From Roseibium denhamense (GTDB lineage Bacteria > Pseudomonadota > Alphaproteobacteria > Rhizobiales > Stappiaceae), in the NCBI RefSeq assembly GCF_009711415.1, contig NZ_SMLZ01000100.1:1-64000 (forward strand): a stretch of 64,000 bases of DNA, given 5' to 3'. Positions 43,369-55,757 of this stretch are shown piece after piece. Each line of letters starts with the position of its first letter. Position 1 is the stretch's first letter. The notes under the pieces are model-generated. The model was not told the origin of the DNA. It ran no database searches and saw only the letters and a program-made list of their open reading frames with translations. The position numbers and the translations under genes are program-made.

Positions 43369-43456
43369 TGTGTCATCCCCAGCCTTGTTGATGTTTTGGG
43401 AGTTACGGTCACTGGCTTCTGCCTAGCACGAATTTATGCCCGCTCCGCCGAATTTA

Positions 43457-43471
43457 TTAACAATGTCTAAA
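43457..43471. promoter_or_regulatory. CtrA-like site in the putative origin
   Basis: TTAA-N7-TAAA, one base from the CtrA consensus TTAA-N7-TTAA. CtrA represses initiation in Caulobacter by binding such sites in the origin. Assignment here is by motif only. Confidence 0.45.
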
Positions 43472-43565
43472 CGCGCGGATATCGATCCCGGAACGGTTGT
43501 GGGTTGATGGGGATCAACATGAGCGCTGTGACATTTCGACAGGCTATCCACCAACGCCCAATTTC

Positions 43566-43580
43566 TTAACGAAAGGTAAA
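43566..43580. promoter_or_regulatory. Second CtrA-like site in the putative origin
   Basis: TTAA-N7-TAAA again, with the same single deviation from consensus as the site at 43457, about 109 bases away. Recurrence in one gap strengthens both. Confidence 0.45.
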
Positions 43581-43693
43581 CAGGTTTCTAAATCGCTGTA
43601 ATTACCGGCAAATTTTTGTTATCGACTCCTGGGGAGGAGTTTACGTGTTTTCAACGCCGGATTTTTCCCAAAAGAGATATTGGAGTGATGGAT

Positions 43694-43702
43694 TGTGGAT
43701 GA
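43694..43702 (-). promoter_or_regulatory. DnaA box in the putative origin
   Basis: On the minus strand the 9-mer reads TCATCCACA, one base from the TTATCCACA consensus and also one from the Caulobacter TGATCCACA type. It lies 24 bases from the AT-rich run. Confidence 0.55.
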
Positions 43703-43793
43703 AAAAGGATCCCGGTAATCCACTCTCTAATATAAAAAACAGATTCAAATATAGAATCTTATTAGATTTGAAATGTGGGAAAGGCGCGACCGT

Positions 43794-44822
43794 ATGGAAT
43801 CCAAAGACAGAGCCGTAATGCGGGTTCTCTCAGGTGAAAAAATCTGGCCACCCCCCATCTGGATGATGCGTCAGGCAGGCCGTTATCTCCCCGAATACCG
43901 GGAAGTTCGCGCAAAGGCGAAAAACTTTCTCGATTTCTGTTACTCCCCAGATCTTGCAACTGAAGTCACGCTCCAGCCGATCCGCCGGTATGGTTTTGAT
44001 GCAAGCATCTTGTTTTCGGACATCTTCGTCGTACCGGACGCCATCGGATATCCGGTCAGATTTGAAGAAGGGCGCGGACCTGTTCTGGAACCTCTTTCAT
44101 CTGAATTGATCGATCGTCTTGAGCAGGATAGGGCCGAAGATCACCTCAAACCGGTCATAGAGACGGTTTCACGGCTTCGGGCGGAGCTGCCTGAGGAAAC
44201 TACTCTTCTCGGCTTTTGCGGGGCTTGCTGGACGGTCGCCTGTTATTCGGTCGCCGGACACACCACCCAGGACCAGGTGGCCGCACGCGTTGGTGCTTAC
44301 AAAGACCCGGATCTAATGCAGCGCTTCATCGATGAACTGGTGACAGCGTCGATTTCCTATCTGATCAGGCAATTGGATGCGGGCGCCGATGCGCTTCAGA
44401 TCTTTGATACCTGGGCAGGTGTTTTGGATGATGCCGGATTTCAGCGCTGGTGCATTGAACCAACGCGCAAGATAGTCGACGGCGTAAAAGCAGCCCGGCC
44501 TGGTGCCAAGATCATCGGTTTCCCCAAAGCCTCATCAGCCAGGATGGATGCTTATATCAAGGGAACGGGTGTTGATGCTGTCGGGTTTGATTGGACAGCA
44601 CCGGATCATCGTGCATTGGAAATCCAGAAACAGGTTCCGATCCAAGGCAATCTGGATCCGATGCGGCTCGTTGCCGGCGGCAAGGCATTGGAAGACGGTG
44701 TAGGCCACATCCTGAAGACGTTCGACAAAGGTCCGTTCATCTTCAATCTCGGACATGGTGTCACGCCAGATGCCGATCCTGAGAATGTTGCACGCATGGT
44801 TGAGATGGTGAAGAGGGGCTAG
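43794..44822 (+). CDS. hemE: Uroporphyrinogen decarboxylase HemE
   Basis: HemE removes four carboxyl groups from uroporphyrinogen III to give coproporphyrinogen III in heme synthesis. The 342-residue protein has the substrate loop MMRQAGRYLPEYR, GFCGACWTVACY and the C-terminal NLGHGVTPDADPENV. The ATG at 43794 has GGAAAGG about nine bases upstream; an ATG at 43773 is weaker. It opens the rightward gene series from the putative origin. Confidence 0.97.
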   Translation: MESKDRAVMRVLSGEKIWPPPIWMMRQAGRYLPEYREVRAKAKNFLDFCYSPDLATEVTLQPIRRYGFDASILFSDIFVVPDAIGYPVRFEEGRGPVLEPLSSELIDRLEQDRAEDHLKPVIETVSRLRAELPEETTLLGFCGACWTVACYSVAGHTTQDQVAARVGAYKDPDLMQRFIDELVTASISYLIRQLDAGADALQIFDTWAGVLDDAGFQRWCIEPTRKIVDGVKAARPGAKIIGFPKASSARMDAYIKGTGVDAVGFDWTAPDHRALEIQKQVPIQGNLDPMRLVAGGKALEDGVGHILKTFDKGPFIFNLGHGVTPDADPENVARMVEMVKRG

Positions 44823-46875: not shown

Positions 46876-46891
46876 TGTTTCACGTGTATCG
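46876..46891. promoter_or_regulatory. parS-like site 1 (weak)
   Basis: This 16-mer differs from TGTTTCACGTGAAACA at three positions, all in the right arm. It lies between rho and the acetyltransferase gene and is the weakest-placed member of the cluster. Confidence 0.4.
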
Positions 46892-46915
46892 TATTTCGAT
46901 TCGGAAGCGGATTTT

Positions 46916-47518: not shown

Positions 47519-47534
47519 TGATTCACGTGAAACA
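47519..47534. promoter_or_regulatory. parS-like site 2 with GANTC
   Basis: TGATTCACGTGAAACA has one mismatch to the alphaproteobacterial parS consensus, at position 3. That change creates GATTC at 47520-47524. Confidence 0.75.
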
Positions 47535-47579
47535 GGCATACATGCTGGCTTGAATATCCTTCGCGATTGCATTGCACGG

Positions 47580-47595
47580 TGTTTCACGTGAATCA
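47580..47595. promoter_or_regulatory. parS-like site 3 with GANTC
   Basis: TGTTTCACGTGAATCA has one mismatch to parS, at position 14. That change creates GAATC at 47590-47594. It is the mirror image of the change in site 2. Confidence 0.75.
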
Positions 47596-47702
47596 TATTG
47601 AATCGGAAGCGGACTAATTGGCCTCACACCTATTGATACCGCCGATTTCCGGGACAGGTTCCTTTGTCTGTTTTGGGTTTGGCCAAGAAATCAGAATCGA
47701 TA

Positions 47703-47718
47703 AGATTCACGTCAAACA
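47703..47718. promoter_or_regulatory. parS-like site 4 with GANTC (weak)
   Basis: AGATTCACGTCAAACA has three mismatches to parS, one in the central palindrome, and also carries GATTC (47704-47708). ParB binding is uncertain. Confidence 0.4.
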
Positions 47719-47866
47719 GGCTTCCCAAAAGCTCAATTTTGAATCGCCTGTGTAACGATGGCAGCGCGTGCGAGCCTGGACCAAATTCCCTTAAACACTG
47801 TTTGCAGTGGCTTCCGGCCTCTTGCTAAAGAGGCAGCTCTGATCTTGTCTGAATGGGCCTCATCTT

Positions 47867-49216
47867 ATGAAGGAAACAATCTACGCACTGTCCAGTGGTT
47901 CAGTGCCGTCCGGAGTGGCAGTTATCCGGATATCCGGTCCTGCGGTTCGCAAGGTCGTTTCTTCCTTGTGCCGAAAGATACCTACACACCGTCAGACCCA
48001 GCTTTCCAAACTCCGTGATCCGCAAACGCGGGAGGTGTTGGATGAAGCGCTGGTCCTTTACTTTCAAGGGCCGAACAGTTTTACCGGTGAAGATGTTGCC
48101 GAGATTCACTGCCATGGCGGTCGCGCGGTCGTTGCCGCGGTCCTGAACAGTCTGGCGCAATTTGAAGCGTGCCGGCCTGCAGAACCTGGAGAATTCACGC
48201 GAAGGGCATTTGACGGCGGACGTATGGATCTGACGGAAGTCGAAGGCCTGGCAGATCTTATTGCATCGGAAACAGAGAGCCAGCGCAGACAGGCCGTCAG
48301 GCAAATGGGCGGGGCGCTGGGCAAGCTCTATGATGATTGGCGGAAACGGCTCATCCATATGCGGGCCATGATCGAAGCCGATTTTGATTTTGCAGACGAA
48401 GAAGATGTTCCAGGCAGCGTAGCGGACAAGGTGTGGGCGGAAGCGGGGGAGCTGAAGGCAGAGATCGAAGATCATCTCGTCCGGTCCAAAAGCGGTGAAC
48501 GTTTGCGGTCGGGTGTCCAAGTGGTTTTGATGGGGGCGCCTAACGCAGGCAAATCGAGCCTGTTGAACGCTATTGCCGGACGGGACGTGGCGATCGTTAC
48601 GGAAGAGGCTGGCACCACGCGGGATGTTATCGAGGTTCACCTGGATCTTGTCGGCTACCCGGTGACGCTGGTGGATACGGCAGGCCTACGCAAGGCAGAG
48701 GGTGTTGTAGAGCAAGAAGGTATCCGCAGGGCTGAACAGCGGGGCCGGGAAGCTGACTTGATATTGTGGGCCGTTGAGCCGGATGGAATTGAAAGCACGG
48801 ACAAGGACGGCGGTCTGCCAGCCGATCTTTCAACAGAGGTTCCGGTCTGGACGGTCCGTACAAAAGCGGATCTTGAGACTCCTCCGAAACAAGACTCTTC
48901 CGGAACAACCATTGATATTCCTGCATCAAGCAAGGATCGTAACGGTGTGAGAGCGCTTTTCGAGGCTCTGACATGTTTTGCCAAAGAAACGATATCGGTA
49001 TCCGAAGTTCCCCTGGCAACCAGGTCACGGCACCGTCACTATTTGAATGACTGCCTCACCAATCTTGAGAAGGCTGTCACAGCAGATCATTTGCCTGCGG
49101 AACTGAGGGCTGAGGATTTGAGGCGGGCGGCCGACGATCTCGGCCGCATTACCGGCCGCATAGATGTCGAAGATCTGCTGGATGTGATCTTCCGGGACTT
49201 TTGTATCGGGAAGTGA
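47867..49216 (+). CDS. mnmE: tRNA modification GTPase MnmE
   Basis: MnmE with MnmG makes the 5-carboxymethylaminomethyl group on wobble U34 of tRNAs. The 449-residue protein has the tetrahydrofolate-binding N-domain (MKETIYALSSGSVPSGVAVI, PGEFTRRAFDGGRMDLTEVE), the G1 motif MGAPNAGKSSLLNAIAGRD, the DTAGLRK switch II and the terminal FCIGK with the essential cysteine. Confidence 0.98.
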   Translation: MKETIYALSSGSVPSGVAVIRISGPAVRKVVSSLCRKIPTHRQTQLSKLRDPQTREVLDEALVLYFQGPNSFTGEDVAEIHCHGGRAVVAAVLNSLAQFEACRPAEPGEFTRRAFDGGRMDLTEVEGLADLIASETESQRRQAVRQMGGALGKLYDDWRKRLIHMRAMIEADFDFADEEDVPGSVADKVWAEAGELKAEIEDHLVRSKSGERLRSGVQVVLMGAPNAGKSSLLNAIAGRDVAIVTEEAGTTRDVIEVHLDLVGYPVTLVDTAGLRKAEGVVEQEGIRRAEQRGREADLILWAVEPDGIESTDKDGGLPADLSTEVPVWTVRTKADLETPPKQDSSGTTIDIPASSKDRNGVRALFEALTCFAKETISVSEVPLATRSRHRHYLNDCLTNLEKAVTADHLPAELRAEDLRRAADDLGRITGRIDVEDLLDVIFRDFCIGK

Positions 49217-49218
49217 TC

Positions 49219-49234
49219 TGTTTCACGTGAATCG
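49219..49234. promoter_or_regulatory. parS-like site 5 with GANTC
   Basis: TGTTTCACGTGAATCG has two mismatches to parS. The first, at position 14, creates GAATC (49229-49233). Confidence 0.65.
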
Positions 49235-49271
49235 CTCACTGGCCGCGACTTGTCGATCCTGAACCGTATTG

Positions 49272-49287
49272 TGTTTCACGTGAATCA
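49272..49287. promoter_or_regulatory. parS-like site 6 with GANTC
   Basis: TGTTTCACGTGAATCA is identical to site 3, with one mismatch to parS, creating GAATC (49282-49286). Confidence 0.75.
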
Positions 49288-49597
49288 TCGCAGAAACTGG
49301 TGGCTATTCTTATGTCAGACCAGCGGGCGATTAGTCGGGCTCGCATTGCGGCCCAAAGCTGATCGACTATGGAGTAATCGAGCGTCTTTGGCTGTTTTAT
49401 TTGAAGCGCCCAATGCGCTGAGCTCCCGCACCGGAAAACCCTTTTGACCAATCAGGGTCTCTCAGCGTATAACCAGCGCAATTAACTCCCGGCGAGCCGT
49501 GCTTTTGTTTCGGCGCTTGGTCTGGGCCAGATCCCGAAAACAAGATGTGAATATACGGCCGGCCGGCGAAAAGGCTGTCCGGAACAACGGTGAGACT

Positions 49598-51487
49598 ATG
49601 GACGGTCAAGTTCTATCGTTTGATGTTGTTGTGATTGGCGGCGGTCACGCGGGCTGTGAAGCCGCCGCTGCGTCTGCGCGTATGGGCGTCAGCACCGCCT
49701 TGGTCACACACACATTCGAAACGGTTGGTGTGATGTCGTGTAATCCGGCAATTGGTGGTCTTGGTAAGGGCCACCTCGTGCGCGAGATTGACGCGCTGGA
49801 TGGTTTGATGGGCCGGGTCGCCGATCAGGGCGGTATCCAGTTCCGGATGCTTAATCGGCGGAAAGGACCAGCGGTTCGCGGGCCGCGGGCCCAGGCTGAT
49901 CGGAAGTTATACCGGGAAGCGATGCAGCGGGAGATTGCTGCAACAGATAATCTGACTGTCGTCGAGGGCGAGGCGGATCAGCTCCGGTTTTCGATTAATG
50001 GAGTGATGCGCTCGGTCACCGGGCTTGTTTTGAAGTCCGGCGAGCTTATCGAAACCAAAGCCATCGTGCTCACCAGTGGTACGTTTCTTCGCGGCCTTAT
50101 TCATATTGGTGATCAGAAAATTCCAGCAGGCCGTTCCGGTGAGGCGCCAGCAATGGGCTTGTCTCTATCGCTTGAAGAAATAGGCTTCGCGCTTGGCCGC
50201 CTGAAGACTGGAACGCCAGCACGGCTTGACGGGCGTACCATCCATTGGGACCGGCTGGAGGAACAGCCCGGTGACGATGAGCCGATCCCGTTTTCGACGC
50301 TGACGGACAAGATCTCAACGCCGCAGATCCCATGCCATATTACCCGCACGACACCGGAAACGCACCAGATCATCCGGGACAATCTGAATCGGTCGGCCAT
50401 GTATTCTGGCGAAATCAAAGGCCAGGGCCCGCGCTATTGCCCGTCGATCGAGGACAAGATCGTCCGCTTTGGCGACCGGGATGGCCATCAGATCTTTCTG
50501 GAGCCGGAAGGGCTCGATGATCATACTGTGTATCCGAATGGCATTTCGACATCGCTGCCCGAGGATGCTCAGATCGCCTTTCTGCGCACGATCCCGGGTC
50601 TTGAGGATGTTGAAGTGATCCAACCTGGATATGCAATCGAGTATGACCACGTCGACCCGCGTGAGCTTCGGCCAACCCTCGAGGCGAAACGGTGTGCTGG
50701 TCTTTACCTGGCAGGGCAAATAAACGGCACAACAGGTTATGAAGAAGCTGGCGCCCAAGGCTTGCTGGCAGGTCTCAATGCCGCGCTTCAGGCGGTTGGG
50801 CGGGAGCCGTTCACGGTGGATCGTTCCCAGGGCTATATCGGCGTTATGATCGACGACCTAGTGACACGTGGGATCACCGAGCCATATCGCATGTTCACGT
50901 CCCGGGCTGAGTACCGGCTGTCACTGCGGGCGGACAATGCGGATCAACGTCTGACACCGCTTGGCATTGAGCTTGGGTGCGTGTCGGATGCACGCAGAGA
51001 TGCCTTTGAGACAAAGATGTCACGGCTCGCGGATGTGAGGGAACTGCTTGTCAGCCTCACGGTGACGCCCAACGAGGCGACCAAGAAAGGCCTTCCTGTG
51101 AACCAGGATGGGATCCGCCGGTCAGCATTTGACCTTCTGTCTTATCCCAATGTGACGTTTGACCATTTGAAACAGGTCTGGCCGGAGTTGGACCAGATAG
51201 AAGAAGCTGTCGTGGAGCAGGTCGCTACAGATGCGCTCTATGCCGTCTATCTGGATCGGCAGCAAGCAGATATCGAAGCACTGAAACGGGATGAAGCGCT
51301 GAAGATCCCAGATAGTTTCGATTACGAACGGATCGTTGGTTTGTCTAATGAAGTAAAACAAAAACTGATGTCTGTGCGGCCTGCCACACTTGGCCAGGCC
51401 TCCCGCATGGACGGGATGACACCGGCGGCCCTGACCTTGATCCTGTCACACCTGAAACGGCAGTCGGGCGAGCGGGGAGCCGCCTGA
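49598..51487 (+). CDS. mnmG: tRNA uridine-5-carboxymethylaminomethyl modification enzyme MnmG
   Basis: MnmG is the FAD-binding partner of MnmE in wobble uridine modification. The 629-residue protein has the dinucleotide motif [43 protein letters not shown] and the second-domain [16 protein letters not shown]. The ATG at 49598 has GGTGAG upstream; the frame extends to 49499 without homology. It overlaps rsmG in an ATGA junction. Confidence 0.97.
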
Positions 51488-52149
51488 TGACCTCTGCACC
51501 GGTGTTGAAAAGCTCTGGAGAGGTTGTGCGTAAGTATGGGGATGTTTCACGTGAAACGTTGGAGCGTCTACAGATCTATGTTGACCTTGTTTTGAAGTGG
51601 CAACCCGCACAAAACCTTGTGGCTCCGTCGACGCTGCCGGAAATCTGGACCCGTCACATCGCGGACAGTCTTCAAACCCAATGGAGTTATCCAGAGGCTC
51701 AAACGTGGGTAGATATCGGAAGCGGGGGTGGCTTTCCAGGGATTGTCACGGCGATCCTGCTGGCAGACCGGTCAGATGCCCATGTCCATCTTATCGAAAG
51801 CAATCAGCGGAAAGCAGCTTTCCTTCGGACCGCCTTGAGAGAGACCGGCTCCAACGGAACAGTCCATCCCGGCCGGATCGAATCGGTTGCGAAAGAGTGG
51901 GCGCATGGAAAAGTTGATGTAGTCTCGGCAAGGGCGCTGGCGTCTCTTGATCTGCTTTTTAAGCTGTCAGAGCCATTTACAGCCCAGGGTGCGCGGGCTG
52001 TTTTCCACAAAGGGCAGGATTTTCAGCGCGAAGTTAACGAAGCCTCTGACAGATGGCGGTTTGATCTGGTAGAACAAACTAGTCTTGTAGATCCTACGAG
52101 CCGGATGCTCCTTTTTTCGAACATATCAGCCCGGCCGAGCAGCCTTTAA
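51487..52149 (+). CDS. rsmG: 16S rRNA (guanine527-N7)-methyltransferase RsmG
   Basis: RsmG methylates G527 of 16S rRNA with S-adenosylmethionine. The 220-residue protein has the SAM motif WVDIGSGGGFPGIVTAILL and the family block VSARALASLDLLFKL. Codons for VSRETLERL near the N-terminus contain parS-like site 7, a position also used in other alphaproteobacteria. It is coupled to mnmG and followed by parA after 15 bases. Confidence 0.96.
   Translation: MTSAPVLKSSGEVVRKYGDVSRETLERLQIYVDLVLKWQPAQNLVAPSTLPEIWTRHIADSLQTQWSYPEAQTWVDIGSGGGFPGIVTAILLADRSDAHVHLIESNQRKAAFLRTALRETGSNGTVHPGRIESVAKEWAHGKVDVVSARALASLDLLFKLSEPFTAQGARAVFHKGQDFQREVNEASDRWRFDLVEQTSLVDPTSRMLLFSNISARPSSL
51543..51558. promoter_or_regulatory. 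parS-like site 7, inside rsmG
   Basis: TGTTTCACGTGAAACG has one mismatch to the parS consensus, at the last base. It keeps both arms near canonical and has no GANTC. It is about 0.6 kb upstream of parA. Confidence 0.8.
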
Positions 52150-52164: not shown

Positions 52165-52989
52165 ATGAGCATGCTTCCCGAAACTCCGCGCGTTCTTGCG
52201 CTTGCCAACCAAAAAGGTGGTGTCGGTAAGACGACAACGGCAATTAACCTTGGAACCGCTTTGGCGGCGATTGGCGAAAAAGTCTTGGTGATCGACCTTG
52301 ATCCACAGGGCAACGCATCGACCGGTCTTGGGATCGAACATCGTGACCGTGGCCTGTCCACCTACGAAATCCTCAGTGGAGACTGTTCTCTCGCAGAGGC
52401 CGTCCGTGAAACAGATGTGCAGAGGCTTTGGGTTGCGCCGTCGACAATGGACCTTCTGGGTCTAGAGTTGGAAATCGCTTCCACTGGCGACAGAGCGTTC
52501 CGCTTGAGAAACGCTATCCAGGCGCTCACCCAGTCCCGGTTGTTTGAGGAAATCGGCTTTACGTATGTGCTTGTCGACTGCCCGCCGTCTTTGAACCTTC
52601 TGACGATCAACGCCTTGTCTGCCTCCCATTCGATCCTTGTGCCGCTTCAATGCGAGTTCTTCGCGCTGGAAGGTCTCAGCCAGCTTCTGAGCACGGTCGA
52701 GCAGGTGAAGAACGCGTTGAATTCAGAGCTGAGCATTCATGGGATCGTTTTGACCATGTATGACAGCCGTAACAATCTCTCCAGTCAAGTGGTTGCCGAT
52801 GTGCGCGAAACCATGGGCAATGCGGTTTATGAGACCATCATTCCGCGGAATGTCCGGATCTCCGAGGCGCCATCTTATGGAAAACCGGCTCTCCTATACG
52901 ATCTGAAATGCGCCGGCAGCCAGGCCTATTTGCGGCTTGCGTCCGAGATTATCCAGCGCGAGCGGCAGCTGCGCAAAGTCGCGGCTTAA
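52165..52989 (+). CDS. parA: Chromosome partitioning ATPase ParA
   Basis: ParA is the Walker-type ATPase that moves ParB-parS complexes along the nucleoid. The 274-residue protein has the deviant Walker A NQKGGVGKTTTAINLG and Walker B DLDPQGNASTGLG, and YVLVDCPPSLNLLTINAL. The lack of a long N-terminal DNA-binding extension marks it as the chromosomal (Soj-like) type. A GGAAGGTG site precedes the ATG. Confidence 0.97.
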   Translation: MSMLPETPRVLALANQKGGVGKTTTAINLGTALAAIGEKVLVIDLDPQGNASTGLGIEHRDRGLSTYEILSGDCSLAEAVRETDVQRLWVAPSTMDLLGLELEIASTGDRAFRLRNAIQALTQSRLFEEIGFTYVLVDCPPSLNLLTINALSASHSILVPLQCEFFALEGLSQLLSTVEQVKNALNSELSIHGIVLTMYDSRNNLSSQVVADVRETMGNAVYETIIPRNVRISEAPSYGKPALLYDLKCAGSQAYLRLASEIIQRERQLRKVAA

Positions 52990-53090
52990 CCGGCAGTCGA
53001 ATCGGATCCGGTTCAATTTGTATGTTCGCCAGCGCCTTTTGAAAGCGGGGGCTGGCTGCGTGATATTCAAAGAAAATGAAAAGGTGCGGC

Positions 53091-53996
53091 ATGGCGGAAA
53101 AAGACGTCAAAAACAAGCGTCTCGGCCGGGGATTGGCGGCTCTTATCGGTGATTCAGCCCCTGAAGCCTCACCACCACCGGAAAAGGTCATTCGGGACAG
53201 CCGGAAGGTCCCAATTGAGCATCTTGAGCCCAATCCCAGAAATCCGCGCAAGACCTTTACCGAAAAGGATCTGGCGGATCTTGCCGAGTCCTTGAAAGCC
53301 AAGGGGATTGTACAGCCGATCCTGGTCCGCCCAGCTGCAGGCAAGACGGACCGCTTTGAGATTATTGCGGGTGAGCGCCGCTGGCGGGCAGCTCAACGGG
53401 CCGGTTTGCATGAGGCGCCCATCATCATCCGGGACGTGACCGACCAGGAAGCGCTCGAACTTGCCATCATTGAAAACGTCCAGCGAGCGGACCTCAATCC
53501 CATCGAAGAGGCAATGGGGTATGAGCAACTGACGGCAGAGTTCAGCTACAGTCAGGGCGAGTTGGCGAAGGTTATCGGCAAAAGCCGAAGCCATGTGGCA
53601 AATACTATGCGCCTTTTGAAACTTCCCAATTCGGTAAAAGATTATCTTGCTGAGGGCCTTTTGACGGCCGGCCATGCACGCGCATTGATCACGGTTGAAG
53701 ATCCTGCAGCTCTTGCGGAGCTAATCGTCGAAAAAGGGCTAACGGTCCGCGACGCGGAAAAGATCGCTCAGGACCCGGCTGCCCTTGCGAAAATAAAGGG
53801 CGAGGCGGCGCCGGCAGAGAAACCGCAGAAAGATGCAGATACCAAGGCGCTGGAGAAGCGTTTGACAGATACCCTTGGGCTTAAGGTTACGGTCGGTCAT
53901 AAACCGGGCAAGGAAACTGGTGATTTGAAGATCAAATACACATCGCTTGAGCAGCTTGACGAGCTTTGCAAAAAGCTTGGTGTGCAAGTCCGATGA
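53091..53996 (+). CDS. parB: Chromosome partitioning protein ParB
   Basis: ParB binds parS, hydrolyses CTP and spreads as a sliding clamp. The 301-residue protein has the N-terminal ParA-interacting motif RLGRGLAALIGD, the CTP-binding GERRWRAAQRAGL, the helix-turn-helix GELAKVIGKSRSHVANTMRL and a C-terminal dimer domain. The ATG at 53091 has AAGGTG upstream; ATG 53076 is an alternative. It follows parA by about 100 bases and ends at a terminator. Confidence 0.97.
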   Translation: MAEKDVKNKRLGRGLAALIGDSAPEASPPPEKVIRDSRKVPIEHLEPNPRNPRKTFTEKDLADLAESLKAKGIVQPILVRPAAGKTDRFEIIAGERRWRAAQRAGLHEAPIIIRDVTDQEALELAIIENVQRADLNPIEEAMGYEQLTAEFSYSQGELAKVIGKSRSHVANTMRLLKLPNSVKDYLAEGLLTAGHARALITVEDPAALAELIVEKGLTVRDAEKIAQDPAALAKIKGEAAPAEKPQKDADTKALEKRLTDTLGLKVTVGHKPGKETGDLKIKYTSLEQLDELCKKLGVQVR

Positions 53997-55184: not shown

Positions 55185-55757
55185 CTAAGACCTGCTGGCG
55201 AAATGGCCTGCAAGCCGTGCTGTTATGTCGTCAGCCACGGACTTAGCGACGCGTTCCTGTGCATCACGATAAGCCCGCTGATTGGCAAAGCGTTGATCCG
55301 AAAAGTCGTAGGAAGCCGACTTGAAGGACCTGCCGGTCATCAGGGTTTCATTCGTATTGATGTCGCTGAGTACGAATGTGGAATTCATCGTGGTCGTGTA
55401 CGCGGACGGAACGTCAGCAAATTGCTCGACGCCAACATCGGAACTGCTGACATCGATGAGCACCTTCAGCCGGTAACGTTTGGCAGGGCTGCCCGCGCCC
55501 CGCTCCAGATTAAAGGTGAGCTCATTGTAGAGCACCCGGGCTGCATCTTCGTTGGCGAACTGGCTGGAGATGGAGTCCAGATCTATGGCCGCCAGATCAT
55601 CCGCAACCATGGAGGTTGCGCCAAACTCGCCGGACGTTGTGCCGTATAGGGGGCGGACCTGGCAGCCGCTCAGAGCGATGCCGGTGAGGACGAGGCCGCC
55701 GAACACGGCGGCCTTAAAAACTCTTGTGTGCGTGTTTTTCAGGTCAAACAACAACAT
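55185..55757 (-). CDS. lptE: LPS-assembly lipoprotein LptE
   Basis: LptE plugs the outer-membrane LptD translocon for lipopolysaccharide. The 190-residue protein has a lipoprotein signal peptide with lipobox LSGC (Cys32), followed by QVRPLYGT, which is the typical start of mature alphaproteobacterial LptE. The central [15 protein letters not shown] and C-terminal [17 protein letters not shown] fit the family. It overlaps the leuS end by 14 bases. Confidence 0.9.

Follow-up and report, generated by a model that had tools for sequence, protein, structure and literature searches.

Canonical parS sites (TGTTTCACGTGAAACA), described in Caulobacter and Bacillus, are the closest known counterparts of the sites analysed here. 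The sites of our locus share with them the 16-bp palindrome, the CACGTG core and a parAB/mnmG cluster near the presumed origin, and the ParB encoded in the cluster contains a segment (IGKSRSHVANTMRLL) identical to that of Caulobacter ParB. They differ in that one arm reads TGATTCAC or TGACTCAC and contains GANTC, the word of the methylase CcrM; a class-wide form of this kind was not seen.

Dam words (GATC) and CcrM words (GANTC) are also known to overlap sites for Lrp, OxyR, Fur and MucR. There as here, a methylation word lies in or beside a bound site, and binding and methylation may compete (PMC3973325, PMC5172544). In contrast to those cases, ours concerns a putative centromere site, not a promoter, and its sensitivity to methylation is a prediction. 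A third comparison is with the repABC replicons (Paracoccus pAMI4 and Agrobacterium ori2), in which CcrM words lie close to the sites used for partition; for Agrobacterium, a role of one such GANTC in partitioning has been suggested (PMC9040568, PMC11514494). These replicons use the RepB partition family, and the available parts of the two papers describe words near parS and none inside one. CcrM is described for most Alphaproteobacteria, and in Caulobacter GANTC sites are hemimethylated from replication until division, a state that applies near the origin in about 80% of cells (PMC3973325).

Two 16-mers and two 14-mers sought verbatim in the open-access literature gave no matches. Methylation of parS arms did not appear as a topic among the titles and abstract openings listed, in a search that covered mainly the main texts of open-access papers.

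parS-like sites around mnmE, mnmG and rsmG

The window is the whole stretch of Roseibium denhamense DNA that was analysed, 64,000 nucleotides in length. It contains eight matches to TGTTTCACGTGAAACA at three or fewer mismatches, where 0.16 are expected. One of them, at 55735, has a damaged core, lies within a reading frame and is probably a chance match. The other seven span 46.9 to 51.6 kb around mnmE, mnmG and rsmG, with parA and parB just downstream (Table 1), and five lie one or two mismatches from the consensus.

Table 1. Features of the parS-like cluster and its surroundings, in window coordinates
Feature	Positions	Strand	Remarks
Candidate oriC, gap before hemE	43369..43772		GC skew changes sign; single DnaA-box-like word
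hemE	43773..44822	+	
Weak parS-like site TGTTTCACGTGTATCG	46876..46891	none	3 mismatches; core without GANTC; GATTC 22 bp further on
Companion word, second copy GATTCGGAAGCGGA	46898..46911		Adjoins the weak site
parS-like site TGATTCACGTGAAACA	47519..47534	none	1-2 mismatches; GATTC 47520-47524, left arm; upstream of mnmE
parS-like site TGTTTCACGTGAATCA	47580..47595	none	1-2 mismatches; GAATC 47590-47594, right arm; upstream of mnmE
Companion word GAATCGGAAGCGGA	47600..47613	+	Adjoins the 47580 site
Degenerate parS-like site AGATTCACGTCAAACA	47703..47718	none	3 mismatches, core damaged; GATTC 47704-47708 retained
mnmE	47867..49216	+	NF003661, 590 bits, above cut-off
parS-like site TGTTTCACGTGAATCG	49219..49234	none	1-2 mismatches; GAATC 49229-49233; directly 3' of the mnmE stop, without overlap
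parS-like site TGTTTCACGTGAATCA	49272..49287	none	1-2 mismatches; GAATC 49282-49286; between mnmE and mnmG
mnmG	49592..51487	+	TIGR00136 above cut-off; start codon chosen, open frame from 49499
rsmG	51487..52149	+	TIGR00138 above cut-off
parS-like site TGTTTCACGTGAAACG	51543..51558	none	1 mismatch; without GANTC; 5' part of rsmG
parA-like ATPase	52165..52989	+	Family models below cut-offs; named from position and sequence
parB	53076..53996	+	TIGR00180 domain above cut-off; structure-library match

The original prediction stated that five of the seven sites carry GANTC in one arm, and that the two exceptions are the site in rsmG and the weak one at 46876. Both statements are correct; if only sites with two or fewer mismatches are counted, the proportion is four of five. 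The word arises by a T to A change at position 3 or by the mirror change, A to T at position 14. A relaxed pattern, TNNTTCACGTGAANNA, has three exact matches in the genome, all in this cluster; one mismatch adds two further cluster sites and three places on other contigs, and the reversed control has six matches.

The gap in front of hemE is a candidate oriC, judged from the neighbourhood of hemE and the change of sign in GC skew; a look for DnaA boxes to place the origin gave a single box-like word there. The genome also encodes a CcrM homologue with a RAMA domain above cut-off, although its match to NF050803 (E 1.5e-185, 616 bits) falls under that model's cut-off of 830; a homologue is encoded in 248 of 249 genomes of the order. 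We predict that ParB most likely loads onto the chromosome at the window sites, putative parS of a lineage-specific form in which one half-site is ordinary (TGTTTCAC) and the other, TGAYTCAC, holds a single CcrM word.

Distribution in the family, the order and beyond

The comparison across Stappiaceae proposed with the original prediction was made in part. A pattern search matched 84 of 87 genomes, and among the sites listed (at least 75, from 38 genomes, own included) A occurs in exactly one arm at 62 and 13 are consensus. None of these 75 sites has a C, a G or a double-A variant.

For the wider comparison we used loci extending up to 20 kb around mnmG. In the class, mnmG was matched in 123 of 144 genomes (own included) and 100 of the other 122 loci were taken, those omitted being mostly the weakest and edge-cut matches. 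One locus (L097) belongs to the window's own order and was moved, leaving 99 class loci, five of which have no site at all. In the order (Hyphomicrobiales by record names) mnmG was matched in 76 of 81 genomes; outside the family, the 40 loci whose MnmG scores rank closest to the window were taken and, with L097, make up a set of 41 that leans to closer relatives because of this choice. With sites counted at two or fewer mismatches and the window excluded, GANTC is present at 37 of 118 parS-like sites in the 41 order loci and at 3 of 214 in the 99 class loci (Fisher p 1.3e-15). At least one such site is held by 20 of the 41 order loci, the other 21 having none, and by 3 of the 99 class loci. 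In a tree built from 47 MnmG rows, 42 from the order and 5 as outgroup, with 17 of 44 inner branches poorly supported, the presence of a GANTC site changes at least 12 times.

These counts speak against the simple form of the idea, that presence of CcrM leads to GANTC in parS, and a general property of CcrM bacteria throughout the class is rejected. CcrM is described as common in the class, yet the pattern is nearly absent there outside the order; CcrM alone is thus insufficient and an order-specific cause is needed.

A search for TGATTCACGTGAAACA in GTDB representatives matched at least 80 loci; among the 80 listed, a sample, 61 have names that we read as Hyphomicrobiales, three are unplaced Alphaproteobacteria and 16 are from elsewhere. 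Three of these 16 are Actinobacteria with the site by rsmG/parA/parB (L174, L185, L186), so ParBs outside this lineage can tolerate A at position 3. A phylum-wide ParB tolerance was rejected: TGATTCACGTGAAACA is present in 16 of 249 genomes of the phylum, 15 from the same order and one from outside the class. Other variants were seen in a few loci. The core CACATG (or CATGTG) replaces CACGTG at sites in L101 (G165), L142 and L143, and the symmetric variants TGTTTCGCGCGAAACA and TGTTCCACGTGGAACA occur in two copies each (L070 at 8954 and 10919; L036 at 5929 and 8016), which suggests a shifted ParB specificity in those families.

For place and orientation we used the 41 order loci and the window, 123 sites in all. 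The share with GANTC is six of seven upstream of mnmE, 19 of 52 from the mnmE stop (included) up to mnmG, 6 of 41 in rsmG, none of eight inside mnmE or mnmG, and 10 of 15 elsewhere. Five of the six in rsmG have the change on the mirror side, which in the window's rsmG frame would exchange Thr for Ser, not Val for Asp. A fixed orientation of the GANTC arm was rejected (17 left, 24 right, p 0.35).

The surroundings of the sites also contain GANTC. With the cores masked, there are 56 words within 40 bp of the 123 order sites and 48 within 40 bp of the 214 class sites; the corresponding counts are 9 and 26 for GTNAC, 28 and 40 for TGNCA, and 11 and 18 for CTNAG, so that in the order GANTC is denser than three words of the same composition. 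Over 150 bp the class shows enrichment as well (1.7-fold, with 2.2-fold in the order), due largely to one peak at 100-120 bp that is possibly coding.

A companion word of the pattern GANTCG-nnn-CSGW, picked after examples had been seen, has 12 matches within 60 bp of parS in the order loci (14.8 kb; some overlapping), compared with 75 in the remaining 782 kb; near parS in the class loci it has none. In the window a related word, GAWTCGGAAGCGGA, is present twice, next to a parS-like site in both cases (Table 1). Loci with a companion word near parS are L151, L192, L194, L113, L121, L124 and L125.

Substitutions within the arms

Counts for the 249 order genomes come from whole-genome pattern searches. 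Reversed-pattern controls gave one match each for the one-arm and A3+C4 patterns and none for the both-arm, T3+V4 and position-5 patterns.

One-arm variants at position 3, counted wherever they lie relative to parAB and with the window's own genome included, occur in 103 of the 249 genomes. Among 150 listed, 136 have A, 13 have C and one has G, although the 136 may include sites at the mnmE stop, where coding forbids C, G or T. Because the stop codon imposes A3, the test of base choice and the comparison of A3 with T3 arms are weakened; the contrast between positions 4 and 5 is unaffected.

Changes in both arms at position 3 are confined to 14 sites in 10 of the 249 genomes, 13 with A and C and one with G and C. 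None of the 249 genomes has an otherwise consensus site in which both arms carry A, and none of the 263 loci fetched has a double GANTC. Among the 75 listed Stappiaceae sites, independent arms would give 12.7 doubles and none was observed (p 6e-11, kinship ignored); at 65 near-consensus order sites, window included, none was observed against 2.1 expected, which is not significant alone (p 0.07). Both-arm changes do occur at other positions: 15 sites of the class and 10 of the order have them at position 1, and two class sites each at positions 5 and 7.

The 13 sites with A and C (TGCTTCACGTGAATCA) belong to two families, f126 and f127, and are spread over nine genomes (G234, G278, G558, G579, G597, G614, G628, G641, G655). 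Those on the contig of the main cluster are 8 to 46 kb away from it, and two are on other contigs.

Second changes within an A3 arm are also uneven. C at position 4, which gives GACTC, is found at 17 sites in 13 of the 249 genomes and in four families, and these are all the position-4 changes beside A3. T3 with V4 occurs at one site in the 249 genomes, and a position-5 change beside A3 at one site in 191 order genomes. From the letters, GANTC is preserved by C4 beside A3 and abolished by any other base at position 5. In A3 arms changes at positions 4 and 5 stand at 11 to 1 (191 genomes), and in T3 arms at 1 to 18 (order and class loci). The difference has a Fisher p of 1.6e-6, or 0.01 with T3 arms from order loci alone (1 to 4); both tests set whole-genome pattern counts (A3) against locus counts (T3) and ignore kinship. 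The restriction of position 4 to C shows a constraint on the arm from ParB or DNA shape as well.

The form is specific to the order, recurrent and, in everything examined, one-armed, and second changes mostly preserve GANTC. A3 without GANTC does exist, as TGATCC in L165 and G614. GACTC arms replace GATTC in L170 (4505), L229 (4099), L210 (7496), L231 (5311) and L113 (3580); four of the five have a GATTC site no more than 40 bp away.

Possible roles of the GANTC arm

The substitution pattern agrees better with selection for a single methylatable half-site than with plain tolerance by ParB, and the GANTC word itself is probably kept by selection. Our best overall explanation, put forward tentatively, is a ParB half-site that is sensitive to methylation and would read replication state. 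Passage of the fork would alter the methylation state of the GANTC-bearing arm, and N6-adenine methylation of that arm may change how easily ParB nucleates. ParB loading at the centromere would then differ between fully methylated (unreplicated) and hemimethylated (just replicated) DNA. The unmethylatable arm would leave the site usable at all times, and two GANTC arms would make it too dependent on methylation and be avoided; one and only one GANTC would make it both responsive and usable. An N6-methyl group would sit in the DNA major groove. The recognition helix of ParB is inserted in the major groove of parS (PMC7383237), and an effect on nucleation is thus plausible. The broader version, a centromere that reads replication across Hyphomicrobiales, with full methylation restraining and hemimethylation freeing ParB nucleation (or the reverse) and one GANTC per parS as the rule, is possible and we hold it more loosely. 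The frequent origin of the A in the mnmE stop among pattern-found loci makes us slightly less sure of both the selected word and the sensing by ParB.

The chief competing explanation is epistasis between base pairs when ParB binds. A permissive ParB of the order, with lysine at the equivalent of Caulobacter A184, for example, would accept TGAYTCAC in one arm through tolerance or adjacent-base epistasis alone, and methylation would be irrelevant. In the window ParB, K182 stands in place of Caulobacter A184, and G161 in place of an E (163 by equal offset). Of the 42 order ParBs, 33 have lysine at residue 182 and 31 a non-acidic residue 161; of the 93 class ParBs, none has lysine at 182 (two have R) and 10 are non-acidic at 161. 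In ParB/Noc proteins, K or R at the residue equivalent to Caulobacter 184 is permissive and raises non-specific DNA affinity (PMC7383237). The restriction of position-4 changes to C and the occurrence of A3 in a few lineages outside the class also agree with tolerance. However, neither residue acts as a switch: within the order, residue 161 (p 0.16) and residue 182 (K in 14 of 21 against 19 of 21) fail to separate genomes with GANTC sites from those without. The original prediction had allowed for a simple tolerance at position 3, and in its plain additive form this fits poorly. Under it, double-A sites should exist and A3+C5 should outnumber A3+C4, the opposite of what is observed; in one arm A far exceeds C and G, and beside A3 drift affects position 4 but not position 5. 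C is far the rarer base in one arm, yet A+C doubles occur and A+A doubles were not found. We consider tolerance or epistasis alone unlikely, if still a serious competitor.

Less likely again is that GANTC is kept for CcrM/GcrA control of mnmE-mnmG-rsmG-parAB, or as a site shielded by ParB, with ParB loading unaffected by methylation. Such a role agrees with the enrichment of GANTC around as well as inside parS and with the companion GANTCG word near parS in the order. In Caulobacter, DNA-binding proteins shield GANTC from CcrM, and GANTC methylation at the parS locus is reported as unchanged by methylase expression (PMC5172544). Gene control does not sit well with a word that stands in either arm and at several places, including inside rsmG, and a promoter role alone leaves one GANTC per site unexplained.

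A coding origin, in which the mnmE stop (TGA TTC...) supplies the A and copies of the site spread by local duplication, is very improbable. Among 50 named loci with an mnmE match, a biased sample found through the A3 pattern, 24 have a TGAYTCAC arm whose TGA is the in-frame stop, and sites are frequently in short-spaced groups. In the order set with the window, by contrast, 2 of 41 GANTC sites coincide with the stop, neither of them from the window, so that this origin is insufficient for the window and the stop is rejected as a general cause. The high share of GANTC upstream of mnmE also speaks against it, and it leaves GACTC versus TGATCC unexplained because both differ 3' of the stop. One sequence serves as mnmE stop, parS-like site and GANTC in L163, L164, L188, L189, L193, L206, L217 and others.

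Chance, which the original prediction had left open as the origin of the GANTC arms, is excluded by the contrast between order and class and by the rarity of GANTC in the window (81 observed against 306 +/- 16 in dinucleotide shuffles), at which density a random 16-mer holds the word with p = 0.015 and five of seven sites have p = 1.6e-8, under a null that is generous because a single base change turns a parS arm into GANTC.

How bacteria link the segregation of their chromosomes to replication has long been asked, and the first step is the nucleation of ParB at parS. If ParB only tolerates the changed arm, the pattern still indicates a lineage-specific shift in ParB specificity. If the methylation-sensitive half-site is real, a half-site that is also a CcrM target would give the coupling of segregation to replication a direct molecular handle, in a form that many members of a large order share, rhizobia and Bartonella included.
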